Below, one piece after another: positions 24,071 through 63,599 of a stretch of DNA of 64,000 nucleotides. The first letter of the stretch is position 1. Every line of letters starts with the position of its first letter. Position numbers and translations under genes: made by a program. Under the pieces are notes generated by a model, which worked only from the letters and a program-made list of their open reading frames with translations, was not told the origin of the DNA and made no database searches. The stretch covers positions 7,266,481-7,330,480 of the forward strand of contig NC_092631.1 in the NCBI RefSeq assembly GCF_039555335.1, written 5' to 3'. This stretch comes from Amphiura filiformis (taxonomy: Eukaryota > Echinodermata > Ophiuroidea > Amphilepidida > Amphiuridae).

Positions 24071-24229
24071 GCAGCCTCCTGCTTCCATTAACGGGTGGTA
24101 AATCCCACATCAAGTTTTTAGCAGCACCCTATGTTTTTCATCAGCCTTTGTTGTTCACCGTTTTTGTATATAAGTTGCACTTGGACCGCACTGCACCATT
24201 CAACATCCGGGACAGCAAGATTTGCTTTT

Positions 24230-29775: not shown

Positions 29776-30026
29776 CTACTTACTTTTTGCTGTTGTGGAA
29801 GCTACTGCTTTGTCATCACTGCCAGATTTGGCCCCCAAGCCACTGTCGTTTCCTGAAGCCAATGTATCTGTGGTTTTACTCCCTGTTGTAAGTGTAGGAG
29901 CTGCTGTTTTGTCCTGACCCCCCACACTTCCAGACTTGGTCCCACTGTCGTTTCCTGAAGCCAATGTATCTGTGGTAGAAGCTACTGTTTTGCCCGCATC
30001 AACACTATCCAGTCCAGACTGGGCCC
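29776..30026 (-). CDS. Exon 29: Ser/Thr/Gly-rich C-terminal tail, apparent stop
   Basis: Encodes a low-complexity tail with an imperfect repeat of TTDTLASGNDSG. The ORF ends AAA AGT AAG TAG at 29776, but AAA|GTAAGT is a perfect donor (gt at 29783-29782). The stop may therefore be read only if this site is skipped. No clear poly(A) signal found before the composite element that starts at 29707. Confidence 0.78.
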
Positions 30027-36000: not shown

Positions 36001-39000
36001 CCATTTGACCCCAATCAAATTTACAATTTTTGCCACAATTTCACAGAAATGTCATGTTATTTCCCCCCTTCACTTCTCTTTACAGCATAATTCCCTAGAA
36101 CAAAATTTCTGGTGTCCACCCTTCCCCATCTTTCAATGTTGGAGGGTCTCACAACCCTGTGGACAATATGGATTTGTCTAACATTGAGTGGGAGCAGAGA
36201 CATATTAACCAAAAGACAATGTATGCAAACATTCCTTTTGCAAATATTCCTATGCAAATATTCCTTTTCTGATTGTAGTTGCCAGGCAGAAATTGTAGTT
36301 GCCTTGTAGTTGCATTAAGTATACCAGTAATAAGTATTCAAGAACTGTATGAATACCATTTGAAGCCTTATCAGAAAATGCCATACTACCAAAATCTAAA
36401 TTCAATAACTCTTGAGGGAATTGGCCAAATAACACGAGTGGGTTTAAACAAAATAGCCTGGTCCGCAATCCAGGGACCTCAGAGTCGGCCAAATGAAGCA
36501 TATAGAATTTTATGACAACCAAGTTGCCTTCAACATGAATGCACATCATATTGATGGCTGGTAGAGCTCTGAAGGTTATCGATGCTGGAGGTATTCACCA
36601 ATGATCCATGAATGCACATCATATTGATGTCTGGTAGAGCTCTGAAGGTTATCAACGCTGGAGGTATTCCCCAATGATCCACTTCTCTCTCATGCAATAT
36701 GCGACACATTCCATTTAAAAAAGTGAATCTTATTAATTTGCTTTACATACTGTTGCTTTTGTAGAAACTAAAAATAATAGCTTTCAACAGGACAAGGAAC
36801 AAATTAACATTCATCCACTTTCATAATCTCACCTTGCTTTGGCTTTGGCTTTTCAGTTGAGGATGATACACCTGTATAGGTACCAAACAAAAAATGATCA
36901 GAATAATATCAGTGCAATGTCATATTCATGTTTCACAAATGAAATATTTTGGTAAGATGGAACAGACATCACTGTGAATATAAAGGCAATACCTTTGTCT
37001 ACTTGGGCTGTATTTCCAGCAGGCCATATTGCATCAAGTTAAATACTAAAATTTTCTGGTGAACAGCCCATGCTTTATCTCACTATAAATAGGGAAATGT
37101 TGTATGTGTGTGTGTATGTATGTATGTGGTTTATGTAAAAGGCTCCGTCAGTTTCGATCCACATGTCGCCAAATTCATACGGGAGATCGAGAAATATACG
37201 GGAAATTGCCTCGACTTTATTTGGTTGAAATCGGTCAAGAATTGGCTGCAAAAACAGTGAAAATATGGGTAAAACGGGGTTTTTGTTATGAAAATCAGTT
37301 ACCAGCCCTGGCGTCACTGCAGCTGGCAGGCAGCAGCGCTGGCGCTGTAGCAGCGCACTCAGACTACGCCAATGCGCGCAGAACGGCGCAGAGCCACGCG
37401 ACTTGCGAGCCAGAGACCAGTGGACATGATAATACAGAAAGAAGGAAAAATAAATAAAAATTAGGCCTAAAGGACAAAAAGGTACATGGACGGGTCACGG
37501 GATTATGATAAAGATGAACATGTCCGCATACACGCTCTGAGAGGACGTATACGGGGAAAATATGTGTGCTGTATAAACAAAATGAAGCGGTAGACCTATA
37601 CTATATATAAAGAAAAATGAAATTAAAATGACAAAAGAGGTACGAGTAATTAGGCCAACGGGTTAAATTAACTAAATGAAACAGGAACGAAACAAAGAAG
37701 GAAAGAAACTAATCAGGAAATGTAAGAAAAAAAAGAAGCTATAATAATGATAACAGAATTAAATAAAAAATGAAGCTAAAAGGGAAATGTAACAAATAAC
37801 AGATTTAGAAAAAAATGGGAACGGGTTTAAATAAATAAATAAATAACATGGAAACGGAAAATCAAAATGTATCTTTTCGATGATTCTACCTGTCCAGTAA
37901 TTCTTCCTGTTATAGTGAACGCTCCCATTTACTCATCTAGCGGGGACCCGCGCGAAGCGCGGGTATCCCGCTAGTGTTTGATAAATTCTCCTAAAACTGA
38001 AGCTATGTTATCTGCCTGTTTTGCCACCAAAGTAATTTGCTTATTGAGTCAACAATGAACAAGTAATATCATATCACAATTATATAACCTATTCACTACA
38101 GTTGTTTTCTCAACATGACACATTCTGTGCAAAGTCAGACCAATACTCCTTGTCAAAATTGTGTCATATGTCCCTAATATAATTCCTGTGTAGCATGGTG
38201 ACCTTGTGAATCCAGTCACCCCACTAAATAACTTAAAGCCTTAATGTACGATCTTTTTAAATTTTTAGATTTTTCTTTTTTTCTTCTAAAATGATAATAT
38301 GCAATCATTATGAAAGTTCCCAATACATTTGGACGCTTGAAAAACATTGGGAATTTGCAAAGAAACAACATCATAAACTTCACCTCTATCACTCGAAACA
38401 TCTCGCACTATTTGGATTAGGACAGCGAAAAGTGCGGCTTCAGAGTTAGTCTCCCACGCCAGTTTGGTTACGCTCCCTCCACATGTGGAGGGAGCGTAAC
38501 TAAGCTAGTTTTGTATGAGACTACGGTTTGCGATCGTGGCCGACATAAAGTCATAATCTAAAAAAATTATGACTTTATGTCGGACCAACAGAAAATCGTC
38601 CTGTTTTACGACAAATAGGACGAATTTGACAGTTTGCTCATAGATTTAAGTTAGAACATGTGTAAGTATTACAAATATGCCAAAAAATCGGTTTTGAAAA
38701 AAATAAAGGTAAATTTTGAAAAAAGATCGTACATTATGACTTTAACCTAGCAGGTGAATTGGCAGCAGTTGCCCTGGCCAAACTGAAAAAAATTACACTC
38801 TATGAATATATGTATTTTGGTGCAAATTCGTAATAAAATCATAAAATAAGGGCCTATTCCGCCAGGACTAAATCAGTGGACATTACTTTCTTAATTTGTT
38901 TCAAGATTCTGCTGCAAACATACAAAGCTCTTAATGGACATGCACCCAACTACATCTGCAACCTCATATCATTATCCACTAACATCTCTCTCCGTTCCGC

Positions 39001-48000: not shown

Positions 48001-51000
48001 TAATCGACTCTTTGGGTGCCACACCCATGCACGGGCCTACCTTGGCACAGGGGTGTAGCTTGCCCGGCCAAACTTTCCGTCGCCATATGACTGTTCGCAT
48101 GATGACGCAATCGCATCATGTGGGATACCTGCTTGTGCCTACACTTTGTGAATTGAGGTTTTTTGATGTTTCATTTGGTTAGGATTAATATACACATATT
48201 ATTATTTATTAGCCCTAACGTCCCAGTTGCTTTTTGGCGAGGGGGAAGGAAAGAAGCCTGGAAGAAAGAAAGCAAGAGAAGAGAAAACTTTTCTCGGGTG
48301 CGGTGTTGAACCCCTGACCCCTCGGTGCCACACCCGTGCACAGGCCTACCTTGGTGTAGCTTGCCCGGGCCAAACTTTCTGTCGCCATATGAATGTTCGC
48401 ATGATGATGCAATCGCATCATGTGAGATACCTGCTTGTGCTTACGCTTTGTGAATTGAGGTTTTTTGATGTTTGGTTCGGTTAGGGTTAAAAGAAAGTAT
48501 ATCTTACAACTGGTGAATCTCGTTTGTGTGTCCCAATGATGAAGATTGGTGGATATCCTTTATCATCGGCAGAATCTTGTGCTGCATAAGTATAGATAGA
48601 CTGCAACCAAAACTTGATGAAGTCTTCCCCATTGAAATCATGGAATCGAGACGTTTCCTCCTTAACAAAACAAAAAGGAAAACAAGACAAAGTGAACAGA
48701 ATCTTGTGCTGCATAAGTATAAATAGACTGCAACCAAAACTTGATGAAGTCTTCCCCATTGAAATCATGGAATCGAGACGTTTCCTCCTTAACAAAACAA
48801 AAAGGAAAACAAGGCAAAGTGAACAGGACATGTCTTAAAAAAACTAGTTAGTTTAAAATGTAAACTTCTTTTGTTGTGATGCTCAAATCAAGTAAAAAAC
48901 AGGCAAGCACTTTTATGAAGCATGGTCAAACATTATCATTATTTCAGTTGTCCTAAACAGCTTTATAAATGATGACATAGACTTGACAGTTTGTGCAAAG
49001 GAGAAATGCATATGCCATAGAGAAAATATAGGATAGACTGCAGGTGTGTTACTTCCCATAGTGGTGGGAAACAGAGGCTTGTACAACACATCATCAGCAA
49101 TTGCCTGGCTTCCCATGGCAACCCAAATGGAAAGATAAAATCCATCATGGACAAAGCATCCAAAACTGCCCTTACAGTTAGCTACACAATCTCAGAAAAC
49201 CAGTTTACCAAAATCTGGTCCGTAGTCTCAGAGCATGCACATAATATAATATTATAATTCATAGATGTTCTGTATCTTCACAGAGAACTGCATCAGGAGT
49301 TCTAATCAAAAATGTGAAAGACTGGCTGTGAAGATAGCTGGTGATCTATTAATTAATTATTCTCCCTCAATAATAATTCCATAGTGTAATTTTGACTGCT
49401 ACTGCATATTTGAATTACACTTTTGATCTGTGAAAGTGCCATGACCATTACACAACTGTTGATCGTAAAACATCCTAACCCATTTCTTAAATACTTCAAT
49501 AACAAAAAACTGTAAATAATTAATACTTACCTCTATGGAGAAATCCCGAACTTCACATGACTCTTCTAGTTTCTTGCTCATATCAAACACAAGGGCAAAG
49601 ACGGCTCTTCGATTAAAGAACACCTGCAACAAATATATAAAAAGGTTAATAAGGATGAAGACAAGTCCTGAACTGTGTACAACTCTGCTTCCTTGTTGCA
49701 GACACTTTCAAGTACATCACATAATAATCGCTGTTGCCCTGTGGGAACTCATAATATTGTTGGAAGTGATTTTGTATAGAAAATGCAGACAGAAAAAAAA
49801 ATATGTTGATCATGCCATACACCCACCTGCTTAGGAACTTTAAAGGCCCATTCAGTGAAATTGTGTATACATTATGAAAAGGTATTTTTGAAATGAAACA
49901 TTTGGCAAGAAACAAGGAAAACAGCAGTATTGACACAATTAAAGCCCCATTCAAATACATGTAGTTAATTGTTCTACTTAAGTAGTGATATAACAATTTC
50001 ATGTAAATTTAATTATTTTGTCTTTTAATATACAGCTTTTGACTTAACCACTAGCAGGCTATGTTAGTACATCTATGCTACAAACAAAGGTGCACAATAC
50101 TGAATATGTGATTATGGCCCCTGGACCATAACTCACCTGGTGGGTCGTGTAATATAAGTCTTGCCTTGCGAAGTCCCAGAATAAATTGGTTCATAACTCA
50201 CCTGGTGGGTCATATAATATAAGTCTTGCCTTGCGAAGTCCCAGAATAAATTGGTTCATAACTCACCTGGTGGGTCGTGTAATATAAGTCTTGCCTTGCG
50301 AAGTCCCAGAATAAATTGGTTCATAACTCAACTGGTGGGTCATATAATCTGTTTTTCCGTATCACGGAGAAATCGTGGCTTTACCCAAAAGTGAGGAAGA
50401 AATAAAGTGGAAAATTGGGGTGGAATACTTAAATAAATTGGTTCATAACTCACCTGGTGGGTCGTGTAGTATAAGTCTTGCCCTGCGAAGTCCCAGAATG
50501 TAACTTCAAGATCATCTGCTTGCTCCGTAGCCTTTCTGATATTTTCTGGAATTTCAGCTGGTTGTTCTTTAGCCTTTATATACAAAAAATATACACCTTT
50601 ACTATATATCTGCTTTGCTGGACCAATAAATATAAATTAAAATTTCAAAACTGCTTATCCCACTATGCAATGATTAACCCTAACTGAACCAGGTCTCTCT
50701 CACTAATTCTCACATCGCATTGCCTAAGTCATATACACCCAGGGAATCACTGGCCGGGCAAACATCACCCATGTGGCTACAGGTCGGTGATCTTCTGCAT
50801 GGCATGCGAGGGGTCCGAGGTTCGAATCCCGAGGCACCAAGTGACTTCTTTGTTCATCTTTTTTTTCATTTCTTCTTTCCCTTCCAAAAGCAAAAAAAAA
50901 CCTTGTGTTCAGTTAGGGTTATCATACCCAAATATTGGAGACATACTTTGACTGGTCACCTTTTGTTCTGATCTCGGAAAATTTATTGATGATATTACCT

Positions 51001-54000
51001 GTCTGTTAACATGTTTCTCTTTGTTACTTTTAATTTTTTCACCCTAATTTAGTTCTTTATAAAATCATTATTAACACCCTCTGTAATGTACATACCTTGT
51101 TTGGATCTTTGGATTCTTCAATTGGGGTTGTCTCATCCTTTGCAGAGGTAGAGGCACTTTCCTGTTGCAAAATAAAGCCAATGAAATAGATGCCTTTTTA
51201 TAAATATTCAAAATATATCTAGAAATATTTATATAGTTATATCTAGAAATATTTCATTCAGGTGGTAACCATCTTTACACAATTATACATAGTGTCTTAA
51301 ATCTCACAATTCTGAATTATTGCTCACCTCACATTATATTATAATAACGATGAATGATTCTTCCCATTTATACAATTTCATGAAATTACCTTCTATTGAG
51401 TCCACTTATGTGATCCAGCAAATTCATTATACACTAAGAATTCTCACTTGATCATTTCTGTACATGTCTACTGTCTGTCAAAGTGACAGCCTCGTTCTGG
51501 TGAAGAGCATCAACTACTGATCAATCTTGATTTGTCTTAAAGTAGGTTGCTCCAAGATATGTAGCATGAAAGAGTGAAGCTATTACCTGTCTGTTAACAT
51601 GTTTTTCTGTGTTACTTTTATTTTTTCAATCTAATTTCCTTTATAAACACCCTCTATGTAATGCACATACCTTGTTTGGATCTTTAGATTCTTCAACTGG
51701 GGTTTCCTCATCCTTTGCAGGGCTAGAGGTACTTGTCTGTTGCAAAAAAACACACCAAATAATGATATGTGCCTTATTTCTATTTTTTATAAAATTCAAA
51801 CTATATCTGGAAATAATTCATTAACCATCTTTACACAATCATACATAGATTCTGTAGTATTGCTCAATAATATAATAATAAATTTATTATACACTTTAAA
51901 TTCCCACTTGATCATTTGTGTACATGTCTACTGTCTGTCAAAGTGACAGCCTCATTCTGGTGAAGAGCAACTATCTACTGATCAATCTTGATCTGTCTTA
52001 AAGTAGGTTGCTCCAAGATATGTAGCATGAGTCATTCAGTTGGCAGGGCACAATTCTCAGGCTTTGATTGACCCATTTTTTGGACAAAGGGGCTGTTCTC
52101 GGATTTTGACATCAAGGGGTCAGTTGGGGGACCTGCATCCTTATCAGCTCTCTAAATGATTCTTTGATGCTACATGCCAATGTTAAATTGCTACAAAATG
52201 TCACTCTATCTTCCAAAAATGAAGCATTGTTATGATGCTGTGTTATCAAGCGATTCTTACTTACCGTCTTCGTCTCAGGCACTTGTTTGTCATCACTCTT
52301 CTGCTCTTCTGATTCTGTATACAAAATAATAATAGTAAATTAAATTTCTCATCATAATTGTCAAATTCAAAATGTATTATCTGGCTTCCCTAAATCACAA
52401 CATTTGTAACAGTTTTACTTTCTTTCTTTTTCGGTAGTTCAATGCTACGAGAATGGGGATCTTATTGATTTATTGATTATCAATAGTAAAAAAAGGAACT
52501 TTACCTAATAATTGAACATTGAACTATCCAAATGAACTTATTCCAGAAAATTACAAGAAGGGTCTCTTGAATTGGCTCACATCTGAAAATGGATGACTAT
52601 CTGGTGGTACATCAGCAAATACTCTATAATGAGTATAATGGTTCCCAGAAGAGTGAAAATTGGGAAGGGTTTAATAGGCCAAAACGGTTTGTCAATTAAA
52701 TATGTTTTATGGCTGCATACCTTGCTTGGAAACTGTGTCTTTGTTCAAAGGTTCACTTGTTGGTGCAGTTGGCTGTACTGGAGTTTTTGATGATTCAGGT
52801 GTCTGATAGTAATAAAAACAAACATAAAAATACATTGACGTCACTAAAGCTCAGATTTCTGGCGTTTAAAAAGTAATGTGATTTAAAATATAACACATAC
52901 TAGGTGATATAATGCAAGAAAATTGTATATTGTCCATAAATAATTATAAATTGTAAAACATCAATCTTGAGTTAGGTTAGAATACATTGTTTAGCTTATG
53001 TGTGAAAGACCCTTTGACCTTTATTTTAAAGGTATAACACATTCAAATAGGATTATAAAGTTCCAATAGTAAACCCTGCTCTTTTCAAAACTGACTACAA
53101 ATGCAATAATACTCTCATGGTTCATTTAGCAAATTCTAAATACATCATGGAGTGAGCATAAGTCTGATCTAAAATTCACACTTCTTCAAAGAAAATATAC
53201 CACATCTACTGGCCATTGATAAGAATTGAACCCGTACCAATGTATATGTTACATTGTACATAATGAACTTGAATCAAAATCTGGAAGGGCAATAGAACTG
53301 AGTTTGAATTAGTCAGTCATTGATTTCTTTAATAATCTCATCACACTCACTCACCCAAATCCTGCATGTACCATATCACTTATATATTTTGAAGGGAACA
53401 CATTATACTGATGTCTCCTCTGAACTTGACTAAAAAGTTAAATGATTACAGAACATTACCTATTAAAACTTTTGACTCACCATGATTTTCTTTTCTTTAT
53501 GACTCTCTTGTTCAGATTCCTGTGGAGGATGTTGGCTGACGTCCGTGTCCTCAGGTGGACCTGTTTGATGTATATTTAAAATTAAAGTAACCACTTTTAA
53601 TAATCTGCAAGATTCTTATTGGATAGCTGTATGTCAGCCTCAATCATTCATTTCATTCCATGCAAGGGAGATTTGGCTATCATATACAAGCTCAAATTTT
53701 GGTAAGAATTTCAAGATCGTAAAATTTGTATGTGAACAAACATGAACTAAATATTACTGAACATTTTCCTCAGGACTGTTATTGATAACTAAATGAAGAG
53801 ATTTCATCGTTTTTGACGATTTTCTTGGAAAACCAACTGGTAACTGCGTTACTAAGCAACCAGTATCATCAGCGGTAAACAGAAGAACGTCACAACAACA
53901 TCAGTGTTGAGAAAGAAGTCTGCTAGACTTCGAAACGTCCACAGTGAGTACTGTTTTATTGGACTAGAAATATGAAATCTCTTCATTTATGAACTAAATA

Positions 54001-57000
54001 TGCTACAGAGTTTAGAGTATACAGACTTATTTCCATTGTCATCAACATATGTTACTTTCCATTTGAGTTGTTGAATCACCCATATTAGATCAATCAGGTA
54101 ACATAATAATGTAATACATTATGATGCATAATTCAGTAAAATGTGCATATAGCCTGCGGCAGAGTTTAGAGTATAGAGATATATTTCCATTTCCATCAAC
54201 ATATGTTACTTTCCATTTGAGTTGTTGAATCACCCATATTAGATCAGGTAACATTATAATGTAATCCATATTGATGCCATGATTCAGTAAAATGTGCATA
54301 TATATATTATATATATATATAGCCTGCAGCAGAGCATCCTGCTCATTGAACTATTGGATATTACATATTACATTGTCTTACTTGGCGGTGTTCCTGCAAC
54401 CTTTGGTGGTAAGTGTTCTTGTTCTTCCTCTGGGACAGGAGTTGACTGTTGTCAAATAAAACAAAAGGAAAATGCTGATAAACTCTCTTTGCAAGAGATT
54501 TAAAGATCAAAGGCTCTACACAATGCATGTGTTAAGGGGTGGTGCAATAATTATGTGTATCCGGGGTGAATTGGGAGGTGGAGCAAGCAGTTTTTTGGAA
54601 ATTCAAAAAAATTCAAAGGGAGGCAAAGATTTTTTGGCACATCATAATTGGGGCCACACAATTTTGAGCGCAGATTTTGGTGGCATCGTTTCGATAATAT
54701 GCCCAAAAAGGCATAGAAAAAGTAGTACATTATTTTTAAATATGCAAAATCTTGCTGCATTTGTACCACATATCCCTAGTCACTAACTAAATGTAACACC
54801 CCTTTACAAAGAATGACTTAACTTTATGTATCTCATTACTCGTATTGCAAACAATTCAGTTTTTCTCCTACCTTATCAGCAAGAGTTGGGTCCATCATGG
54901 TTGCAGCTGCATGCGCCACTCCCCAGTCATGCTTTTTATCAAGTTGTTTGATATGTTCTAAAGTAAAATTCAAATTCAAAATATATAACACCTAATTACA
55001 TATATGCATGCAACAAAATGTTGTTTTGTTTTTCTGCATTAATTTTGAAAGTTCAATAGCTATGAACATAAAAATGAACAATTACAGAAAGTTTAAGGTA
55101 CTGTTTCTGTCTATTAGGTTGTAATCTTACAAAGCCTACCTTCTACCTTACTTGTAGCTAACTGGGTATGGGAAAACCTGTATAAATGACCTACTTTGGG
55201 CCCTTTAATTTAAACACTGGACATGAATCAAATTTCTGGTATATAATACTCAGTAAAGTATCAATCAACATCATTGTACCAAAATATGTGTCCTGGTGAG
55301 TATTCTAATAAAGTCCATTGCATATGGTGATCCCAATGGGCCTGTTGCAGGTCCACCAATTTTCAGGGCATATGCTCAGCCAGTTTCTGAAATCATTAGG
55401 CTCCATCAGGTTGCATTTCAGATACACAGCTTTACCTTAGTTTTAATCCCAAGTAACAGGAGGATAAGACAGCTAAACAACTTAAGCTCACAAAATGCAT
55501 TGTTGAGGTTTAATCGTGGATGCTTGAAAACAAGTTAAAAGCTGAACGACTCAAAAGCCAAGCTTTTTCTTGATTTCTTCTCTTAGATGTGCAGTTTCTA
55601 TATCCTACCTTGACTTGAATATCGGAGGGTCTGTAATCACATTTGATTACAGACCCTCTGATGCTAAAATTAAATAAACCTTTTGAAATTCAAATTTCTC
55701 ATTCAATCCAGAGCCCCTCTATGGGGTGCTACTCTGAGTACATAAACAGGACAGGATAAGAAAGAAAGGTTTGAGATTTCACCACCGGGACGTCCCTTTT
55801 TAATGATCAGTAGTTACTTAATCAAACCAGGAAGTACTTGTTAAATTTTGTTGTTGATTTATCTTGCTATCTAAGTGCAGTTCATTAGCATTCAGTTAAA
55901 GTTGCCTCTGTGTTACTGACCAAGACCAAGAACTGTTTGCTGAAAGTCTTACACAACAGCCTGTGCCTGCATATTAGCTAGAATTAATAACTGTAAGTGT
56001 TTCTCATTGACCAAATGGTCCATAGCAAGCTATAGATACCATGGAATAGTTTGCGAGCTTTAAAAAAAAAAGATCAACCTACCCCCTGACCCAAATAAAT
56101 TTTGGGCTGAAAGGGCAAACAGACCTTTTATTTGTTTGGCCTTAAATGTACGTAATCAAGTATTCAACATCGCTAATACACATTTGTTTTGAAAGACAAG
56201 TACATAAGCAAATGTCATTAAAGTCATGCTTGAGTGGAGATAAATAATGATTGCGGGAACTTATTGACCATCACCCATACTTTCAATCTCCCCATGGTGT
56301 ATGTATTCTAACCTTTTCGATTACGCTGAAGTGGCTTCCACATGCTGGGGTCTGCAAAGGCTACAGAACAACACTTAGAGGCATCAACACCATCCGTGAT
56401 TTCTTCTCCTGATTCAAATCTGTAATGATTTGTAAGTTTTGTGTAAATTACTCTGGTGGAATTAAACATCTACACACATTACTTCATGTGAACTTCAGTT
56501 CCAATGAGTAAAATATATTTTGGACTTAATAAGCACCCCTTCCTTGTTAATTAGCACCCTGCGAACTTCTTAAACTTGAATCTGTTTAAATGCCCCTTGT
56601 AAATGTACTTTTAACAAGATAAAGGGTAAAAATGCTAGTTTTTCTATGGAAATTATTCTTGATTAAGTTTGACTCTCAACAGATGACTTAAGTCAGTGCC
56701 TGAGCGCTAATTAGGTAGAATACAGTCAGCAGCAGCAATCATTTGCATCATCATCATCATAATAATAATATTAAATGATTATAAGAGCAAATATGGGGCA
56801 ATAAGGCAACTGGTTATTATGCTGTTCTCTCAAGCACTGGCATACCAACAAACCAGCTGCTAATGTTTGTTTGTGGTCAACTCATTTATAGATCAGAATG
56901 ATTCACTTTGTAGTAAACCTACTTTTTGTGTAATTGTTAAGACTGCTATTAATTAAGTTACATTTTTTTGCAAATATACCTAGAAAATTAAGCAAAAACA

Positions 57001-60000
57001 ATATGTCAGTTGCAAAGGGCCATGGTTATATAATATTGCTTTGTCATGAATCTTTAGCTCATGCAATCAATATTTCCCTCCTCTAAATAGTTTTACTTGT
57101 TCTTACCTATCTTCCATAAATGCTTTCACCAAGCTTGTCTTTCCAACTCTCTCCTGGCCCACCAGCATCAGTCTTATGCTCCGTATTTCTTTCTTTCCTT
57201 CTTTAGATGCTTCCAGATATGCAGCTAAGGCCTCTGCTCCTCTTAGTCTGATTTCTAGTGGTGTTTCATCTAGTAAAGAAAATGGTGAAGAGTTAATTAT
57301 ATGTACTGTAAGTGTGCAAGGCTCACAAAATGGCTATTGAATAAGCCTTTTGATCAATTTTGGCTCCACATGCTCTGAACTTCCATATCTGAACATTGAT
57401 AAGTAATAAACAAGCAATTGACGGCTGTGTGAATGAACTGCGACTTTTTGGGGATTTCACTTTTCATTGACATTATTGAATTAAACATAAAACTGATCTA
57501 CTGGACTCACATTTATTTGAGAGGCTACAGTATCGCACCTTATCCAAGGTGCATCTTCAGGCCGTCTGATGATCTGGCGGCAAAAGGTTGTTGACCTGTG
57601 ACAAGGTGGTGTTGCCAGAGGTCGAGGATCTTGAGTCGAATCTTGAGAAGATGCACCTTGGATTAGGTGCGATACTGTAGCCTCTCAAATAAATGTGAGT
57701 CCAGTAGATCAGTTTTATGTTTAATTCAATATTTATTAAACCTGGATGAATGACAACCTTCACAAACGTTTCATTGAAATTATTAGCAACATTGTAAAGT
57801 AAACATTAAGTTGTAGTCAAGTTACAAAGGTGCACATGGCTTAGGAAAAGTTTCTTGATCTGTTTATCTTCATGCTGTCTTCATTATACATCAATATTTG
57901 TTCCCCAAGATCTCTGGTCCTTGGACAAAACTATATGTTGAGTCAAACATGTTTAATGAGAGCTCTTTAACCCATGTTCCTTCCCTTTTGTCAATATAAT
58001 CATATGAAGTAACTGGTTCTAAGTGCATTTTGTGAATCTCTGACCATGTTGATTTATCTCTTGCTGATTAGGACTCCTTGAGCAGACAGGCATTTGCTGG
58101 GTGACTTGTTATAGCTCTATCTGCTTTCAAATTACAATTTAGAAATTAGAAATCATTAGGTGCACCCTCTAAAATTTAACTTGCACATTCAGTTAAGGTT
58201 TGAATATTGAGAATTTGCCAGAATAGCTTTATTATGTATGTACAATGTAAGTACATCAGATGGGTTTGCATGCTTGTGTATGTTTGTTTGTTTTCCTGTT
58301 TTTTGGTTTTGTTAGTTTAATTTTCATGTGTATGTTTAGTATTTGTTTATGACAACAGCTAGAATGGCAAACAAAAATAATATTTAGATATTTATTTAGA
58401 TGGCACAGCTTGGTTTAATTCACAATAGAGCATTTAATTAATGTGCAAGTATAATCTCATATCTAGCTATGCAAAGTCTTTAACTTTCTCGGCACATCAC
58501 TTCATTTGCAATAACTTCTCAAGTCTCTGTAGAACCTCATGGGAGCAATTAAAAAGAAACCTTACCTTCCGGGGTAATGCCTTCAGATGGTTGACTTGGT
58601 TCACTAAGCCCTAGCTTGTTCCTAGCACACACACGGAATTGGTACTCTGTGTCCGCCTCTAAGTCGTCAGCAGTGTAAGTAAGCCCAGGAACCTAGTGAA
58701 CACACATCACATACAATAATTACTCATACAAATATTACTCAAAAGCGAATTCATTAATATATATCAGAAAAAAATGGTTAATAGAGGAGGTTATCATGAT
58801 ACATGACATTCCATATTTTACTGTGACAACCTGAGACAACTATCTGACGACAAATGGGAATAGAGCAATGGCAGTCAAAGCTTTTCTTAACACAAATCAC
58901 CATCATGCTGATCCAGCACCAGTTCTGCTCTTGGATCACCACAAGCTTAATCATCAATCCTTAACTAAAAGATGCCACAGAAAAGGCTCTCTTCCCAGCA
59001 CCATTCTTGGAAAGAGGTAATAGGTAAAAGGAAATACTATCCGCCGAGCGGGTCTTCATTGCCCTCTGGGATGATCTTTTCACAGTAAGCAGTCAACATT
59101 AATAGGTAAATTTTCACGGGAAAATTTTCTGGACACGTGACCATTGCGTATCAATGTGAGTGTAACCTCGAGCCTGATCTCTGACCCCCGGCGGTGACCT
59201 CGCTATTCAAGTCTTAGTAATTTTGAATTGGAATAGTATTTTTGACCATAATTTTGATAGAAATTTGTGCATTGCAAATTTATTGAATATTATGTTATCT
59301 TAATTTTTTCACAATATCATCAAAACGTAATTTCAAAAATATCTATCTCACGGAAAAAAATATTTATCACGGAAACCCTTACCATAACATTATTAACTTG
59401 CGACAAGTAACTTATTTTGCATCAAAGGAGGAATTCTTCCTATTCAAATACATTGGAAGAACACCGCTGTGCTCGGGGTCACATTCCATAATGCTAATAT
59501 GTCTGCCCATGGGTGTCACGTGTCCAGAAAATTTTCCCGTGAAAATTTACCTATTAATTCTGACTGGTAAGGCAGTTATTTATGTACTGGGGAGAGAGCC
59601 CATTCAGAGATTTAAACACATAAAGCAATCCTCTCACTGACAGGGAGCCAATGAAGGAAGTTACATTTTGTGATGTGTTTACATACCTTTTCACACAGTA
59701 CTGTCTGCCATTCACCCCACTGACTGTCTTTAGGTTTACTTCTGTACTCAATAGTATAGCCTGTAACATCTGACCCAATAAAGGGGCAAGTTACTTGTTG
59801 TGATGTGTTTACATACCTTTTCACACAGTACTGTCTGCCATTCACCCCACTGACTGTCTTTAGGTTTACTTCTGTACTCAATAGTATAGCCTGTAACATC
59901 TGACCCAATAAAGGGGCAAGTTACTTGTTGTGATGTGTTTACATACCTTTTCACACAGTGTCTGCCATTCACTCCACTGACTGTCTTTAGATTTACTTCT

Positions 60001-63000
60001 GCACTCAATAGTATAGCCTGTAACATCTGACCCAATAAAGGGGCAAGTTACTTGTTGTGATGTGTTTACATACCTTTTCACACAGTGTCTGCCATTCACT
60101 CCACTGACTGTCTTTAGGTTTACTTCTGCACTCAATAGTATAGCCTGTAACATCTGACCCAATAAAGGGGCAAGTTACTTGTTGTGATGTGTTTACATAC
60201 CTTTTCACACAGTGTCTGCCATTCACTCCACTGACTGTCTTTAGGTTTACTTCTGCACTCAATAGTATAGCCTGTAACATCTGACCCAATAAAGGGGCAA
60301 GTTACTTGTTGTGATGTGTTTACATACCTTTTCACACAGTGTCTGCCATTCACTCCACTGACTGTCTTTAGGTTTACTTCTGCTCTCAATAGTATAGCCT
60401 GTAACATCTGACCCAATAAAGGGGCAAGTTACTTGTTGTGATGTGTTTACATACCTTTTCACACAGTGTCTGCCATTCACCCCACTGACTGTCTTTAGGT
60501 TTACTTCTGTACTCAATAGTATAGCCTGTAACATCTGACCCAATAAAGGGGCAAGTTACTTGTTGTGATGTGTTTACATACCTTTTCACACAGTGTCTGC
60601 CATTCACCCCACTGACTGTCTTCAGGTTTTCTTCTGCTCTCAATAGTATAGCCTGTAACATCTGATCCGCCATTACTCTGAGGAGCTTTCCAGCTGATTT
60701 CAATCTTCTTGATGCCAACATTCTTTACATCAGGTTTGGCTGGTGCATCAGGTTTATCTATAGATTGTAAAGAACATGCAATACATACTACTGTTACATA
60801 GCTGGGGGATCAGGGCCTATGATCGGACATGAAGCATATAATTGTTACAGTTTTGTTGTTGTAATACACGATTCGAAATAAGGTGGTTTGTAAATAATAC
60901 AGCTTTGTAAATACAAAGAATATGCAAATAATGCATTAATATTCATAAATATAAAAATAATTTGACGCATGAACAATTTGAGACCATTTTGGAAAGACCA
61001 AGGTCAAAATATGACCTTTGACCTCATGTCTTATAACTCAAGAAATAATTAGATAATTGGAATGGGACCCAGTCAGTATCATTTAAATAATGAAAATTAT
61101 TGGATTTTCCTGCTTAATATTATATAACGTTATGAATGTAATTAACACTTTAAGTGGCCAAACCGTCCACAGTGAGTAGATGGTAGTAAATGCCTGAATA
61201 GATTCTCAGGACTGTTTGTAGTCTGGTTCCAGATGTTTCTATTACATCAATCAATTCTGACTCCTAGAGCAGTGAATTGGGTGACTTGTTGTACTCTGCC
61301 TTCAAATGCAAATTACAAGAGAACTATCCTCTAGTTTCAATTTCATTAGTTTTGTCTTGAATATTGGAAATTTGTTTGAACAGTGTAAGTATGTATATAA
61401 AGTATTTTGTGTGTGTATGTGGGGTGGGGTGTGTCTATTATATATGTGTGCATCTGTTGGTTTGTTTCTTTGTCTTGGGAGTTAGTTTAAACAAACAATA
61501 TTTATGGTCAGGCTTAGATTTCACATTGGGATGTTGAATGATCATGTGATATAATTTGGCAAAAAATTCACACATAACATACCTAGATTTCAATTGATAA
61601 ACCACATGGAATTCTCTCACATTTTCCAAGTTTCTGTAGAACATTATGAGAGCAATTAAAAAGAAACCTTACCTTCAGGGATAATGCTGTCTGATGGTTG
61701 ACTTGGTTCACTACGCCCTAGCTTATTCTCAGCATACACACGGAATTGGTAGTCTGTAGCTCTCTGCAGATCTCCAGTGGTACTGTAACTATGCGTAGTA
61801 ACCTAGTGAACACACACCACATACAAACACACAAATATTACTCAGGAGCAAATGCAAGATTTATTAGACAAAATGGGAGGTTGATATTATGATACACAAA
61901 ATTTTATATTTTACCATGTTTACTATTTCTCAGGTGCTGAATTCCTCTGATTTCCTATTGGTATGCACCTAATTACAACCCCTGATAAATATACCTAGCA
62001 CTAGTGGACACATGTTTCTTTCTATGAGCGCAAACAGGCCAGCTAAAGGCAATCAAATTGATTCAAAATACCACAAAAGTGTGAGTGTAATCTGACAGGT
62101 TTGTAAAATACAAATCCTGAGATATTTGGAACTGTCACAACCAGATATTGTGTTTTCACAGAAATTCCATACCTTATCCTTGCTAACTTGTTTACCAACT
62201 ACTAAAACATTAAACTTATCGCAGTTATCTAATATCCACAGTCAAGAAAACAATGATGCAATGTCTGACATATTTTGAAGCTCTATTTTGAAGTCTTTTT
62301 AGGTCACTAGCAAGAAGAACGATGTCATTGGTCCAAAATTAACAACCTTTTTTTGAAGATCAATTGGAAGAATTCAAAAAGAAAAATCCAATTCTTAAAA
62401 TCTAAAATGCATAAATAGAAATGATATTCACAAGGTATCAAATGTTGCAGAACATAACTGGGGATTTTGCTGCTTTAGTTTGAAAATTGTACAGTTTGAT
62501 ACATAGATGTTGAGTCATATCTCCCAATAAGGCCAATAAAAAAAAATTCCATAGATCACTTTCAGAAGTTTGGTCGGTCGGTCCGAAAAAGTTTTACTTG
62601 TTATGTAAAACACTCACTGACCACAGAATATCCACCAAAAAGACAAATTCAAGGTAAACCTGGTTTTATTTGCATGTACATGTCTGGCAGACTTAAAATG
62701 CTGCATTTTAAAGTTCAATTAGAGCCTACAGCGTGTAGACGCTGAGGATGATAATACGAAATAGCCAGATACGACTAGGCAAGGGGAAACCGGCGGGTAG
62801 CACTAGGTTTTAAAAGCAGGGGTTCTGAACTCCCAGAAATCCAAAATACAGGGGTACAAACCAAAAACTAGGGGCTTTTTATTTGAAATCCTGTCTTAGG
62901 GGCTTTTTATCATGTTTACAAATGTATTTAGCCAGAACAGTGAGAACACCAACCCTTAGGCCTACCAAAAAAAGAGTCCTGACCTTCACCTAACCCTAAC

Positions 63001-63599
63001 CATAGTCCCTTCCAGCCTAACCTCCTGAAAAACTTGCAGAGTTGAAAAATTACAATCACGCTGGATCTGACTATGTTGTGTAAAGTCAAACATTGTCAAT
63101 GGTGCAGAATTCGGCACCCCAAATATCACACATGAGCCACTAATTTACTGCTATTTTATACCTACATTAAAATATTACCGCAAATTCTTTTATAACTTCA
63201 GTTTTTAGACGAAAAGCTCATGACTTTTTTGGGGAAATTAAAAAAAAAAACTTTAAAAAAAAAAAAAGAAGTTTTATGGTCGGGACTGCCGAGACGGTTG
63301 TCGGACGAGGACAAGCAAACAACTTTTATTTTGGCCTAAAGGGGGGCAGTTACTTTTTGTGATATGTTTACATACCTTTTCACACAGTGTCTGCCATTCA
63401 CCCCACTGGCTGTCTTTAGGTTTACTTCTGCACTCAATAGTATAGCCTGTAACATCTGACCCACCATCACTCTGAGGAGCTTTCCAGCTGATTTCAATCT
63501 TCTTGATGCCAACATTCTTTATATCAGGCTTGGCTGGTGCATCAGGTTTCTTGATGCCAACATTCTTTACATCAGGCTTGGCTGGTGCATCGGGTTTAT
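29776..63599 (-). CDS. FN3-FN3-Roc-COR-TIR protein, 29 exons, 5' end outside window
   Basis: Twenty-nine exons joined in order give 1,234 codons without a stop; every junction agrees in phase. Residues (1 = first full codon): FN3 about 1-117 and 118-218; Roc GTPase 219-337 and about 490-600, with P-loop GQERVGKTS at 256-264, ITDGV near 280, DFAGQ at 501-505 and THKRD at 588-592; an acidic Pro/Ser/Glu-rich insert at 338-490; COR about 630-1003; TIR about 1017-1152; Ser/Thr/Gly-rich tail to 1234. Roc-COR proteins are GTPases that dimerise through COR; TIR domains assemble signalling complexes or cleave NAD+. The FN3 repeats are of the intracellular GGS-vtgY-ie type. There is no signal peptide or membrane segment in the visible part. 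An immune or cell-death signalling role is inference. The terminal stop overlaps a GTAAGT, so a further 3' exon cannot be excluded. Confidence 0.9.
31085..31540 (+). pseudogene. Degraded non-LTR reverse transcriptase fragment
   Basis: Plus strand shows ISLLKNGKSAGIDH, then in another frame an NDWKRGI-like stretch (about 31280). These match the N-terminal fingers of LINE polymerases (family: l..nKSaGiDgIp.E, p..Wk.giIvp). Several frameshifts. Subfamily undetermined. Confidence 0.55.
31579..31921. mobile_element. TTAA-flanked inverted-repeat element, 343 bp
   Basis: agtcccattcagtgatccc (31579) and its inverse ggaaatcactgagtgggct (ending 31921), each followed outside by TTAA (31575-31578, 31922-31925). 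A truncated relative begins taaaggcccattcagtga at about 49840 and shares internal blocks to about 50100. TTAA targets are typical of piggyBac- and Kolobok-type elements. Confidence 0.78.
32040..32300 (-). pseudogene. RTE-type LINE 3' fragment
   Basis: The minus strand contains gtagtcgcctgc and the cgcagccgaa tail also seen at the end of the RTE copy at 11090-11125. The preceding bases resemble the C-terminal RTE coding part but are heavily shifted. Confidence 0.65.
32409..32588 (-). CDS. Exon 28: TIR domain, last part
   Basis: Encodes EAQYAKYKGKPIIPLKF, then PDGWLGLLICSLLYYDV. The K-K-E-A-x-Y-A joint with exon 27 puts a Glu where NAD-cleaving TIRs such as SARM1 have their catalytic Glu. Box GWLG follows. 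Confidence 0.92.
32589..33359. other. Intron sequence, no gene
   Basis: Contains a short AAT/AAC microsatellite (32595-32625) and the phrase taaccctaaacctaacccta near 32682; nothing else recognisable. Confidence 0.5.
33364..34029. mobile_element. TTAA-flanked foldback element, 666 bp, nearly a full palindrome
   Basis: Outer TTAA at 33360-33363 and 34030-34033. The two halves are imperfect inverses over almost their entire length: tttgacagtattttttgtggga with cccacaataaatactgtcc; cgaattgcatt with aatgcaattcg; tccatatcttcaatat on either side of the centre near 33700. No coding capacity; the apparent ORF at 33610-33798 is part of the hairpin. Confidence 0.88.
34069..34170 (-). CDS. Exon 27: TIR domain, middle
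   Basis: Encodes GNMDDRMAEAVDGAFVILLC and FSKDYQKSGSCKK. The M-x-x-A-V/I-x-x-A-x-V strand and C-F-S-x-x-Y-x-x-S pattern match TIR. The last codon (Glu) is completed in the next exon. Confidence 0.92.
34744..35388. mobile_element. Inverted-repeat element with 'cacatagtggcgtat' motifs
   Basis: Ends TTCATCACATAGTG (34744) and CACTATGTGATGAA (35375). The motif recurs internally at about 34933, 34975, 35020, 35050, 35090 and 35110 in both orientations. It shares the catagtggcgtat core with the element at 25867-26496. It lies between the first two TIR exons. Confidence 0.8.
35449..35571 (-). CDS. Exon 26: TIR domain, first part
   Basis: Encodes HVMISYSWGQRKECQKRM, a helix, then GFQVWLDVDEM. The SYSW box 1 and the G-F-x-V-W-L-D-x-D-x-M BB-loop region are typical TIR. 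Acceptor attacag, donor gtgag. Confidence 0.93.
35572..36832. other. Intron 25: hairpin and small duplication
   Basis: Perfect 15-bp stem ctatatagatgacta/tagtcatctatatag at 35630-35668. A 73-bp direct duplication (gcacatcatattgatg onwards) at 36541 and 36614. The rest shows nothing recognisable. Confidence 0.65.
36833..36871 (-). CDS. Exon 25: COR-TIR linker microexon
   Basis: 39 nt encoding VSSSTEKPKPKQ between COR and TIR. The 2+36+1 phase links exons 24 and 26 exactly, with acceptor atacag and donor gtgaga. The shortest exon, so less certain than its neighbours. Confidence 0.75.
37078..37974. mobile_element. Probable non-autonomous Helitron, 897 bp
   Basis: Begins TC (after A, 37077) with ctataaatagggaaatgttg and a TG/TATG-rich stretch, and ends in a GC-rich hairpin (cccgcgc-gaa-gcgcggg, 37947-37963) a few bases before CTAG (37971-37974), followed by T. 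A^T insertion, 5' TC, 3' hairpin and CTAG are the Helitron rules. No Rep/helicase ORF inside. Confidence 0.7.
38237..38741. mobile_element. TTAA-flanked inverted-repeat element, 505 bp, with two strong hairpins
   Basis: agccttaatgtacgatcttttt (38237) is inverse to the right end aaaaaagatcgtacattatgact (ending 38741). TTAA lies outside both ends (38233-38236, 38742-38745). Inside are a 34-nt perfect palindrome (38467-38500, centre cacatgtg) and an 18-bp-stem hairpin (38540-38557 with 38566-38583). Non-coding. Confidence 0.82.
38872..39310 (+). pseudogene. CR1/L2-type LINE 3' end
   Basis: Plus strand reads FKILLQTYKALNGHAPNYIC and LVITSSYGDRAFAVPL, the C-terminal signature of CR1/L2 polymerases. 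A 3' tail follows with tagcgcttagaaacc, gcgcttgataaatg and an ATT-rich end. Antisense to the host gene. Confidence 0.85.
39751..39967 (-). CDS. Exon 24: COR C-terminus
   Basis: Encodes FDFMSKTLHELRDKWAKGIK, TMTVGCVAC and KLHLIPMEECGSGSYLC. Helix then Cys-containing strands at the COR end (family: vGCp.C). Acceptor attcag, donor gtgag. Confidence 0.88.
39968..41106. other. Intron 23: palindrome and 'catcacatacagatctat' repeats
   Basis: A 13-bp-stem hairpin at 40071-40100 (aacaattcatatg, loop taat). From 40336 to 40750 phrases like catcacatacagatctat recur about six times, perhaps a degenerate dispersed repeat. No gene. Confidence 0.55.
41107..41187 (-). CDS. Exon 23: COR loop
   Basis: Encodes ITLKKVAEHGKKSGSSTGEP, a polar loop. 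Short, but phase 0-0 with good acceptor (attatag) and donor (gtaagt). Confidence 0.8.
41527..41702 (-). CDS. Exon 22: COR, after FLP
   Basis: Encodes DGFFHRVLVHFARWSSQH and LFYRFCKSIVGPENKRHVCS. FLP-x-G-F-F-x-R-L-x-V completes the conserved COR motif across the junction with exon 21. Confidence 0.92.
41885..42014 (-). CDS. Exon 21: COR, strand region
   Basis: Encodes QEYCVPACLHPTEGNV and DGIFYVDFDTFLP; fits the YxVPxxL... -Y-x-F-x-x-FLP pattern of the C-terminal COR subdomain. Confidence 0.9.
42050..42800. repeat. Dispersed repeat, inverse of 45050-45833, one end missing
   Basis: From tccttatgaataaggcag on, it matches the reverse complement of the element in the neighbouring intron (ttttgagcaaattgagtta, accaaaataagtac, gaaatcccaaatt blocks in mirrored order). 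The right terminus is not recognisable. Confidence 0.65.
42967..43432. mobile_element. 12-bp-TSD element, copy 1 (466 bp)
   Basis: Flanked by tattaaggtata at 42955-42966 and 43433-43444. Contains inverted arms tacatttaaaatagacttgg (42967) and its inverse (about 43353-43372), then an extra 60-bp right tail from ccagctcccttcttgg to cttggatttatt. A second copy in reverse orientation lies at 63653-63975. The centre is GC-rich (ctcgctgtcgcctccgcc). Non-coding; class unknown. Confidence 0.85.
43495..43650 (-). CDS. Exon 20: COR core
   Basis: Encodes MWQELRDHGILCNKLIDHVW and IKQELLELMERFDMLFRQP. The G-I-L-x-x-x-L-I/L-x-x-V-W pattern is typical of COR. A 12-bp-TSD element lies only about 60 bp past the donor. 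Confidence 0.92.
43821..44096 (+). mobile_element. TTAA element with CCCTAAC ends, copy a
   Basis: Starts CCCTAAC after TTAA (43817-43820) and ends GTTAGGG followed by TTAG. Inside, gcatgcgagggg and a damaged B box (ggttagaatccc) precede gtgacttctttgttcatctt and a pyrimidine-rich stretch. Confidence 0.8.
44137..44384 (+). mobile_element. TTAA element with CCCTAAC ends, copy b
   Basis: TTAA on both sides (44133-44136, 44385-44388), CCCTAAC/GTTAGGG ends; same order of blocks as copy a 40 bp upstream, with a deletion at the B box. Confidence 0.85.
44772..44966 (-). CDS. Exon 19: COR core, GC donor
   Basis: Encodes FTTMLGLYHDLGTIIWFGED and VILDPQWLIDVFKAVIT. The LGxYHDLGxI and DPQWLIDxFxxVI blocks are hallmark COR motifs. 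The 5' splice site is CAG|gcaagt, a GC donor with otherwise perfect consensus; phase and the next exon fit. Confidence 0.93.
45050..45833. mobile_element. Inverted-repeat element, 784 bp
   Basis: atatcgttatgaacacggcagagt at the left and its imperfect inverse actctgccgaattcataatgatat at the right. No coding capacity. An inverted relative lies at 42050-42800. Confidence 0.75.
45997..46164. mobile_element. hAT-type MITE, 168 bp, 8-bp target duplication
   Basis: Ends ctgtggcagcgg and ccgccactg; flanked by tacaatgc at 45989-45996 and 46165-46172. Interior has two poly-T/G tracts and no ORF. Confidence 0.8.
46279..46422 (-). CDS. Exon 18: COR domain start
   Basis: Encodes APHMKEKYPIKWLQFHKAVI, matching the COR entry pattern (M-x-E-x-x-P-x-x-W-L-x-F/L). 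Phase 0-0, 48 codons. Confidence 0.9.
46844..46969 (-). CDS. Exon 17: Roc C-terminal helix / Roc-COR junction
   Basis: Encodes EEDAVKRKIFGILKEKKYEK and VRRQFHFLENDPTKKQPSDEE; a basic amphipathic stretch after G4. Acceptor ttcag, donor gtaaat after GAG. Confidence 0.87.
46970..47997. other. Intron sequence, nothing recognised
   Basis: AT-rich. An open frame at 47043-47246 (+) overlaps no known domain and is not supported. Confidence 0.5.
47998..48184 (-). mobile_element. TTAA element with CCCTAAC-like ends, copy d (deleted core)
   Basis: TTAA at 47994-47997 and 48185-48188; ends ccctaat / gttagga. Opposite orientation to copies a-c; lacks the B-box part seen in copy e. Confidence 0.72.
48216..48486 (-). 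mobile_element. TTAA element with CCCTAAC ends, copy e
   Basis: ccctaac (48216) to gttaggg (48486) followed by TTAA; the left flank is TTAG. On minus: gatgcgattgcatcat, ggcccgggcaagct, gaggggtcaggggttcaac (B-box-like), then a CTTT-rich tail. It ends 21 bp from the donor of exon 16. Confidence 0.8.
48508..48660 (-). CDS. Exon 16: Roc G4 motif
   Basis: Encodes DFIKFWLQSIYTYA then PPIFIIGTHKRD. THKRD takes the place of the N/TKxD guanine-specificity motif, in the TH-x-D form usual for Roc. Acceptor gttaag, donor gtaag. Confidence 0.92.
48698..48829 (-). repeat. Partial duplicate of exon 16 with its acceptor (127-bp period)
   Basis: The first 90 nt of exon 16 and part of its upstream intron are repeated upstream in transcription order. 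This copy keeps the acceptor but lacks the 3' half and any donor. Using that acceptor would add codons and reach a stop before the true exon, so it is likely not used productively. Confidence 0.88.
48830..49530. other. Intron 15, nothing recognised
   Basis: AT-rich, no repeats or domains that I can name; open frames near 48913-49163 on minus have no recognisable motif. Confidence 0.5.
49531..49623 (-). CDS. Exon 15: Roc strand after switch II
   Basis: Encodes VFFNRRAVFALVFDMSKKLE, the hydrophobic strand after switch II that Roc domains keep (family: F...aiyllvfdl). Phase 0-0, 31 codons. Confidence 0.9.
50131..50355 (-). repeat. 65-bp tandem copies of the end of the switch II exon
   Basis: The last about 45 nt of exon 14 with its GT donor and some intron recur at 50131, 50196, 50261 and (partial) 50326. 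In all full copies the codon for the Gly of DFAGQ reads Arg (DFARQ), so they derive from one variant. No acceptor precedes them; I read them as intronic debris, though each offers a duplicate donor site. Confidence 0.9.
50454..50573 (-). CDS. Exon 14: Roc switch II
   Basis: The end of the polar insert runs into the DxxG strand: LEVTFWDFAGQDLYYTTHQ. DFAGQ is the Walker B/switch II motif of Roc domains. The family's WDFAGQ-x-x-Y-x-x-THQ pattern is fully kept. Confidence 0.93.
50678..50918 (+). mobile_element. TTAA element with CCCTAAC ends, copy c (intact B box)
   Basis: ccctaac after TTAA (50674-50677) to gttaggg followed by TTAT. Contains gcatgcgaggggtccgaggt leading into a perfect pol III B box GGTTCGAATCC, then gcaccaagtgacttctttg and a pyrimidine tract. 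Lies between exons 13 and 14. Confidence 0.83.
51096..51161 (-). CDS. Exon 13: linker insert, duplicated exon copy 2
   Basis: 66 nt, phase 0-0, encoding ESASTSAKDETTPIEESKDP. Differs from exon 12 at a handful of codons. Shared intron blocks (cctgtctgttaacatgttt at about 51000 and 51588; ctactgtctgtcaaagtgac at about 51469 and 51929) show the unit was duplicated with its intron. Confidence 0.82.
51671..51736 (-). CDS. Exon 12: linker insert, duplicated exon copy 1
   Basis: 66 nt, phase 0 at both ends, encoding TSTSSPAKDEETPVEESKDP. Close paralogue of the next exon; flanking intron sequence is shared too (period 575 bp). Being phase 0-0 and 22 codons long, either copy could be skipped without a frameshift. 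Confidence 0.82.
52265..52314 (-). CDS. Exon 11: linker insert
   Basis: A 50-nt microexon encoding ESEEQKSDDKQVPETKT. Acceptor atacag, donor gtaag. Supported by phase on both sides. Confidence 0.75.
52721..52802 (-). CDS. Exon 10: linker insert
   Basis: Encodes TPESSKTPVQPTAPTSEPLN, Thr/Pro/Ser-rich, with no predicted fold. Acceptor tatcag, donor gtatg. Confidence 0.78.
53481..53560 (-). CDS. Exon 9: linker insert
   Basis: Encodes PPEDTDVSQHPPQESEQESH and KEKKIM, acidic and polar. Acceptor aaacag, donor gtgag. Confidence 0.78.
53790..53988. mobile_element. Small inverted-repeat element, about 200 bp
   Basis: aaatgaagagatttcat (53791-53807) and its exact inverse (53972-53988) bound a segment with gacttcgaaacgtccacagtg. 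Non-coding. Target duplication not clear. Confidence 0.7.
54007..54330. repeat. 154-bp tandem duplication in an intron
   Basis: agagtttagagtata starts at 54007 and 54161, with shared caacatatgttactttccat and cacccatattagatca blocks; a third partial start follows near 54325 after a TA tract. Confidence 0.9.
54382..54445 (-). CDS. Exon 8: start of acidic linker insert
   Basis: Encodes STPVPEEEQEHLPPKVAGTP, low-complexity Pro/Glu-rich. Acceptor caacag, donor gtaag; phase fits exons 7 and 9. Confidence 0.78.
54872..54957 (-). CDS. Exon 7: Roc, after switch I
   Basis: Encodes a His-, Lys- and Ala-rich helix (KHDWGVAHAAATMMDPTLADK). It sits between switch I and the disordered insert. No catalytic residues assigned. 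Acceptor tttag, donor gtagg. Confidence 0.8.
54958..56312. other. Intron 6: one perfect hairpin, otherwise nothing
   Basis: gagggtctgtaatca and its exact inverse flank catt at 55625-55658. No other recognisable element or gene. Confidence 0.6.
56313..56419 (-). CDS. Exon 6: Roc switch I region
   Basis: Encodes EEITDGVDASKCCSVAFADP. The T-D/E-G block corresponds to the switch I Thr-containing stretch of Roc domains (family form S-T-x-G-I/V). Split codons on both sides match the neighbours. Confidence 0.85.
57107..57269 (-). CDS. Exon 5: Roc domain start with P-loop
   Basis: A charged helix (LRGAEALAAYLEASKEGKKE) precedes the first strand and Walker A motif IRLMLVGQERVGKTSLVKAF. The GxxxxGKTS spacing is intact, so nucleotide binding is expected. 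Acceptor actag, donor gtaag. Confidence 0.93.
57474..57731. mobile_element. MITE with about 90-bp inverted repeats, 258 bp
   Basis: tattgaattaaacataaaac (57474) through ccaaggtgcatctt is inverted at 57645-57731. The loop between the arms has aggtcgaggatcttgagtcg. No ORF. Confidence 0.85.
57732..58565. other. Intron 4: paralogous to the intron at about 61000-61672
   Basis: Blocks such as gtgacttgttatagctct (versus gtgacttgttgtactct), tcaaattacaa and caattaaaaagaaaccttac are shared with the intron next to exon 2, showing that introns were duplicated with the FN3 module. Confidence 0.7.
58566..58692 (-). CDS. Exon 4: second half of FN3 domain B
   Basis: Encodes DLEADTEYQFRVCARNKLGLSEPS, the FN3 E-G strands. 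The split codon joins directly to the Roc exon (57107-57269), so the second FN3 domain abuts the GTPase. Acceptor cactag, donor gtaagg. Confidence 0.9.
59102..59554. mobile_element. Tc1/mariner-like MITE, 453 bp, TA target
   Basis: About 40-bp terminal inverted repeats (ataggtaaattttcacggga at 59102 and its inverse ending 59554), each flanked outside by TA (59100-59101 and 59555-59556). No transposase. Its right edge abuts the LINE fragment. Confidence 0.82.
59560..59655 (-). pseudogene. Short CR1-type LINE 3' fragment
   Basis: The minus strand reads LHWLPVSERIALCVFKSLNGLSPQYI, the C-terminal signature of CR1/L2 polymerases (family: LHWLPV..RI.YK...K.LNG..P.Y). It is squeezed between the partial-exon array and the TA-flanked MITE. 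Too short to say more. Confidence 0.7.
59641..60581 (-). repeat. 127/130-bp tandem array of a partial FN3 exon, seven extra copies
   Basis: The last 80-83 nt of exon 3 plus about 47 nt of its intron are repeated with ends at 60455, 60328, 60201, 60074, 59947, 59817 and 59687 (period 127; the two leftmost 130). Each copy keeps the GT donor. The duplication joint placed gcccctttattgggtcag before the exon piece, which looks like a splice acceptor. Lengths of 80 or 83 are not multiples of three, so single inclusion would shift the frame. I treat them as intronic. Overlapping 94-codon ORFs here are artefacts of the period. Confidence 0.93.
60582..60757 (-). CDS. Exon 3: first half of FN3 domain B
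   Basis: Paralogue of exon 1 with a single KPDAPAKPDV linker; encodes IEISWKAPQSNGGSDVTGYT and SQWGEWQTLCEK. The 3' part of this exon plus the start of its intron is the unit of the 127-bp array that follows (59641-60581). Confidence 0.88.
61673..61802 (-). CDS. Exon 2: second half of FN3 domain A
   Basis: Encodes L-x-RATDYQFRVYAENKLGRSEPS, the E to G strands with the YxFRVxAxNxxGxSxPS signature of FN3. Acceptor cactag, donor gtaag. Exon and flanking intron sequence closely resemble 58566-58692. Confidence 0.9.
61803..63375. other. Intron 1: no gene
   Basis: AT-rich intron with poly-A tracts near 63240-63268 and the phrase aggggctttttat repeated around 62870-62910. No coding frame with recognisable motif. 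Confidence 0.5.
63376..63599 (-). CDS. Exon 1 in window: first half of FN3 domain A
   Basis: Acceptor ..catag, donor gtatg. Encodes a proline-rich linker then IEISWKAPQSDGGSDVTGYT, the A to C strands of an FN3 fold (core Trp and Tyr present). The 16-residue segment KPDAPAKPDVKNVGIK is present twice in tandem (48-bp duplication at 63504-63599), unlike the paralogous exon at 60582-60757. It begins in the middle of a codon, so another coding exon lies beyond the window. Confidence 0.88.

Follow-up and report, generated by a model that had tools for sequence, protein, structure and literature searches.

Does a single brittle-star gene join fibronectin-type repeats to a Roc-COR GTPase module and a TIR domain, and what kind of protein would it encode? 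The question is raised by 64,000 nucleotides of Amphiura filiformis DNA (assembly GCF_039555335.1, contig NC_092631.1, positions 7,266,481 to 7,330,480 of the forward strand), hereafter the window, in which a first-pass annotation had placed 29 exons in one continuous frame with the domain order FN3-FN3-Roc-COR-TIR. We recovered that structure: a chain of 29 exons runs on the minus strand from 63599 to 29776, and its single open frame of 1,234 residues has this domain order inside the window. The model is identical to residues 107-717 of P0034, except for a 67-residue insert in P0034, and to residues 37-725 of P0001. Both are NCBI Amphiura filiformis models predicted on the same DNA, so that this agreement identifies the species but is no proof of the splicing. 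Because the window model is identical to both, the window is, by sequence identity, the locus that NCBI annotates as two genes, P0034 and P0001. We conclude that the gene is very probably real. It is probably incomplete at both window ends, since P0034 opens with a CARD and P0001 runs past a donor that overlaps the stop codon. The reading that we favour as probable, though not by a wide measure, takes its parts jointly: the locus would be one member of an Amphiura filiformis family of ROCO GTPases, with the order CARD-FN3(n)-Roc-COR-TIR-NHL-type propeller, and would act through GTP-switched clustering of CARD and TIR.

An AG precedes all 29 exons, and 27 of the 28 internal donors are GT, the other one, after 44772, being GC. 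Automatic, unconstrained scoring had given a chain of 33 exons, passing partly through a 127-bp tandem array. It was dropped, as it disrupts the second FN3 repeat and omits one COR and one TIR exon; the missing exons, the first of TIR and the one of COR that precedes the GC donor, were restored by hand with matched phases. A 25-exon draft (1,156 residues), later replaced by the 29-exon model, served for the Pfam and Protein Data Bank (PDB) scans and for the initial search for homologues. On this draft Pfam found fn3 in two stretches, Roc (9e-17), COR-A (1.8e-21) and TIR_2 (9.7e-17), all above curated cut-offs.

The exons, all on the minus strand, follow these domains. FN3-1 is split between exon 1 (63376..63599, preceded, in phase 1, by an exon that lies outside the window, equal to P0034 residues 107-180, and containing a 48-bp in-frame duplication) and exon 2 (61673..61802), and FN3-2 between exon 3 (60582..60757) and exon 4 (58566..58692). 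The 3' part of exon 3 and its donor are copied in the 127-bp array (59658..60665, minus strand, 7.9 copies, 98% match), from which the 67-residue insert of P0034 is drawn. Exon 5 (57107..57269) carries a linker and the Roc P-loop GQERVGKT, and exon 6 (56313..56419) the Roc sequence beyond it, with the stretch ITDGVDASK. Exons 7-13 (51096..54957) encode a charged low-complexity insert within Roc, K, E, D, S, T, P and Q making up 76% of residues 309-478 (exons 7-10 at 54957-54872, 54445-54382, 53560-53481 and 52802-52721; exons 11-13 at 52314-52265, 51736-51671 and 51161-51096). Roc resumes with exon 14 (50454..50573, DFAGQ motif), exon 15 (49531..49623), exon 16 (48508..48660, THKRD motif) and exon 17 (46844..46969), where it ends. 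At 50127-50348 the end of the DFAGQ exon is repeated as 3.4 copies of a 65-bp unit, in which the motif reads DFARQ.

The P-loop, DxxG and THKxD motifs lie at residues 256, 501 and 588, and the Roc nucleotide motifs are complete, as had been proposed. The same is true of COR, which directly follows Roc: COR-A (exons 18-20, 46422-46279, 44966-44772 and 43650-43495, with the GC donor after 44772) and COR-B (exons 21-24, 42014-41885, 41702-41527, 41187-41107 and 39967-39751) are both spanned by a fold match to Roco and LRRK, and in the PDB sequence scan the Roc-COR part matches C. tepidum Roco (3dpu, 6hlu). A linker (exon 25, 36833..36871) leads to the TIR (exons 26-28, 35571-35449, 34170-34069 and 32588-32409), with a conserved glutamate in CKKEAQYA. 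Exon 29 (29776..30026) encodes a low-complexity linker; its stop, TAG at 29778-29776, shares sequence with a GTAAGT donor whose GT is at 29783-29782 and which P0001 apparently uses. Neither LRR nor Death gave a Pfam match in the 25-exon draft, P0034 or P0001, and no hydrophobic window above 1.6 occurs in the 29-exon model. By its sequence, the protein does not have the make-up of a Toll-like receptor (LRR ectodomain and transmembrane segment) or of MyD88 (a Death+TIR adaptor), and it is probably cytosolic. The AlphaFold models, with mean predicted local distance difference test scores of 48.8 and 47.1, had little value beyond single domains, and neither gave a confident TIR fold.

When draft residues 440-1075 were searched against 5.8 billion proteins, 54 matched, led by the Amphiura models P0001 and P0002. 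COR-A and TIR_2 occurred together in four of them by a precomputed Pfam list (P0001, P0002, P0038 and P0053). In a further search (E <=1e-10), which scored the best 7,992 candidates by shared words, the pair was present in 5 of 59 matches, all from Amphiura (P0001, P0002, P0070, P0071 and P0102). Both searches depend on five-residue words in common; no Aplysia protein appeared among their matches, though such proteins are published, and absence elsewhere consequently proves little. In a tree of the COR domain, P0001, P0002, P0003, P0006, P0070, P0102 and P0106, all from Amphiura, formed one clade with support 100/100, to which neither the sea-star Roc-COR proteins nor P0071 belonged. The tree used 23 of the 25 named proteins (P0038 had no match, and P0053, with 113 residues, fell below the length cut); its rows are gene models rather than loci, and some pairs may be two halves of one gene. 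The long end branches of Amphimedon, Mytilus and Sinanodonta make their placement unsure, and two corals and Amphimedon are possibly joined falsely. Other Amphiura models show further combinations. P0071 reads Death-TIR-Macro-Roc-COR, the Macro domain beside TIR suggesting ADP-ribose handling. In P0007, CARD_2, a RIG-I-like helicase and the C-terminal domain of RIG-I stand together with Roc-COR and Death, which could be a real fusion or a merged model. TIR is found with NACHT (PF05729), and in some cases also LRR, in P0026 and P0028-P0032.

Several observations weigh against the favoured reading. The similarity of the TIR to SARM1 is weak (profile E 0.00077; single sequence 0.026). Nothing in the window matches the propeller part of P0001, which would stretch the last intron beyond 29.7 kb; the longest intron in the model has 2,879 bases, less than a tenth of that. 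NCBI annotates two genes. Finally, the paralogue model P0002 stops within the TIR, ahead of the glutamate, with an 11-residue tail. Reading exon 28 of the window in another frame gives the same letters, and for this reason the C-terminal end of P0002 looks misread.

The weak similarity to SARM1 speaks for a TIR that is only a scaffold or adaptor, as in MyD88, and not an enzyme; some TIR domains are indeed non-enzymes. We give this possibility appreciable weight, while holding it to be the less probable one. Against it, Cat1 and SARM1/TIR-1 rank above MyD88 in the TIR profile search, and the glutamate is invariant in the 11 TIRs aligned, a chosen set outside which stand many other TIR-bearing matches, P0053 included. 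The profile alignment sets this residue over the glutamate of SARM1 KEIV, which we take to be catalytic.

The second doubt concerns the ends of the protein. The first-pass annotation had the gene extend from 29776 to 63599; this stands within the window, but the gene is probably longer, as the CARD of P0034 and the propeller of P0001 would lie beyond. The CARD is N-terminal in P0034 (Pfam 4e-8), and this part of P0034 has no match within the window. At the other end, P0001 continues past the exon 29 donor and holds only the first 67 residues of a propeller-type domain. Alternatively, the protein might stop at the TAG at 29776, in its low-complexity tail, P0001 having mistakenly taken a propeller exon from a neighbouring gene. 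The unmatched propeller part favours this, as does the listing of CH-ZU5 proteins with the same propeller (P0055, P0056, P0058) on a contig of equal length, 86.0 Mb. We nevertheless consider it unlikely, for a complete GTAAGT donor overlaps the stop, and in P0005, which lies on another contig, the TIR and a low-complexity linker are followed by a full domain of 271 residues, predicted to fold as an NHL-type beta-propeller. The full order of the locus protein is likely CARD-FN3(n)-Roc-COR-TIR-propeller. The propeller tail recurs in kinases and in CH-ZU5 proteins that also carry Death or CARD (P0055, P0056, P0058, P0057, P0060), as a mobile C-terminal module of Amphiura filiformis. In P0059, the COR end and TIR are followed by a different C-terminal part, NHL-like by eye.

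As to the number of genes, NCBI splits the locus inside Roc, between the DFAGQ and THKRD motifs, at the duplicated exon 16. The start of this exon is duplicated just upstream (a 127-bp unit, twice in tandem, at 48570-48826, different from the 127-bp unit of the 59658-60665 array). P0034 departs from the chain after exon 15, and P0001 starts at an ATG at 48768. Were the two NCBI models two genes, P0034 would encode CARD, FN3 and half of Roc, and P0001 half of Roc with COR and TIR. Beyond the existence of the separate models, the evidence is against this: the boundary would break the Roc G domain, and the first methionine of P0001 lies in the extra copy of exon 16, in another frame, its first 36 residues being the translation of this copy and of the stretch preceding exon 16. 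The two-gene reading was dropped as very improbable. Since the paralogue models P0002 (CARD-FN3x5-Roc-COR-TIR) and P0070 (FN3x3-Roc-COR-TIR-kinase) are continuous at the corresponding point, the NCBI cut looks like an annotation artefact.

The GC-AG intron in COR-A (44772), apparently common to the paralogues, seems to break several NCBI models and to be a second recurrent cut. P0006 and P0106 end by read-on (...EKQASQ...), as the window would with the GC donor left unused; P0005 and P0004 begin just past the intron position (MWQELRD...). P0006 and P0005, both listed on a 65.3-Mb contig, would be one gene. P0004 (COR-TIR-diacylglycerol kinase) is a possible fused gene model and was excluded from the architecture evidence. 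Outside the gene, a LINE-like retrotransposon with a PHD-type finger and a reverse transcriptase, recognised by eye in its translation, lies at 21028-24100 on the plus strand.

In the PDB sequence scan the FN3 part matches titin FN3 domains best. A purely structural or cytoskeletal role through titin-like repeats, with no immune function, nonetheless appears most improbable: both CARD and TIR belong to the death/immune type, and Death, Macro or kinase domains occur in related Amphiura models.

How might the CARD-to-propeller protein work? Roc-COR dimerisation depends on nucleotide, and CARDs and TIRs signal through clustering. Modelled on bacterial Roco and LRRK, the Roc-COR module would be a GTP-controlled dimerisation switch. 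The propeller and the FN3 repeats, as sensor or docking parts, would bind a ligand or partner, and activation would gather the CARDs and TIRs. The CARD could then recruit a death-fold partner, while the TIR would oligomerise and probably cleave NAD+, the outcome being an inflammatory or cell-death response. The idea of a switch appears consistent with the domains, which would suit GTP-gated immune or cell-death signalling.

LRRK1, LRRK2 and C. tepidum Roco share the Roc-COR core and the COR fold, but have LRR and, in LRRK only, kinase and WD40, where Amphiura has CARD-FN3 and TIR-propeller. SARM1 shares a TIR with the aligned glutamate, but is regulated through ARM-SAM and not Roc-COR. Amphiura P0070 belongs to the same COR clade; it differs in its C-terminal kinase, and no CARD was found in it by Pfam scan. 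The first-pass annotation had known of no described protein with its domain order. Roc-COR with TIR, however, is a combination already published. In Aplysia, ROCO domains occur in two TLR-like, two MyD88-like and one other TIR protein, so that Roc, COR and TIR stand in one predicted invertebrate protein; LRR, Mbt, EF-hand or a death-like domain are named as partners, and the word fibronectin is absent from the main text (PMC9334734). The red alga Chondrus crispus has a TPR-ROCO-TIR protein, alike in that TIR follows ROCO but with TPR in front, and with CARD, FN3 and propeller going unnamed (PMC11378527). Trichoplax has ROC-COR with CARD or death domains; the legend of Figure 1 lists TIR and CARD, without tying TIR to one protein, and does not list FN3 (PMC4104024). 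ROC-COR proteins are also mentioned in bacterial conflict systems (PMC7159879). In PMC8195603, the terms ROCO and COR domain occur a single time each. The part of the claim that stood concerns the version with FN3 (and CARD), which was not found in the open-access literature searched, subscription journals being mostly outside the scope of the search. Text matches were likewise nil for ROC, COR, GTPase, fibronectin and FN3 in an amphioxus paper (PMC2575513), for TIR, CARD and Roc in the Ophiura genome paper (PMC11959729), and for Roc in the main text of a brittle-star genome paper (PMC11310086). The CARD/FN3 combination is a variant within the ROCO family, not a new kind of protein.

More tentatively, one cytosolic polypeptide might be a whole immune receptor, in which propeller and FN3 sense, Roc-COR acts as the GTP-gated dimer switch, and CARD and an NAD+-cleaving TIR fire together. 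Exchange of end modules (propeller or kinase, with Death, Macro or RIG-I-like helicase in related ROCOs) would diversify the family, as a ROCO counterpart of the repertoire of NOD-like receptors (NLRs). ROCO proteins have been studied largely via LRRK2 in Parkinson's disease. A natural protein with Roc-COR hard-wired to CARD and TIR would allow one to test directly whether Roc-COR can gate signalling in immunity or cell death. The brittle-star family would stand beside the NLRs as a parallel system built on ROCO.
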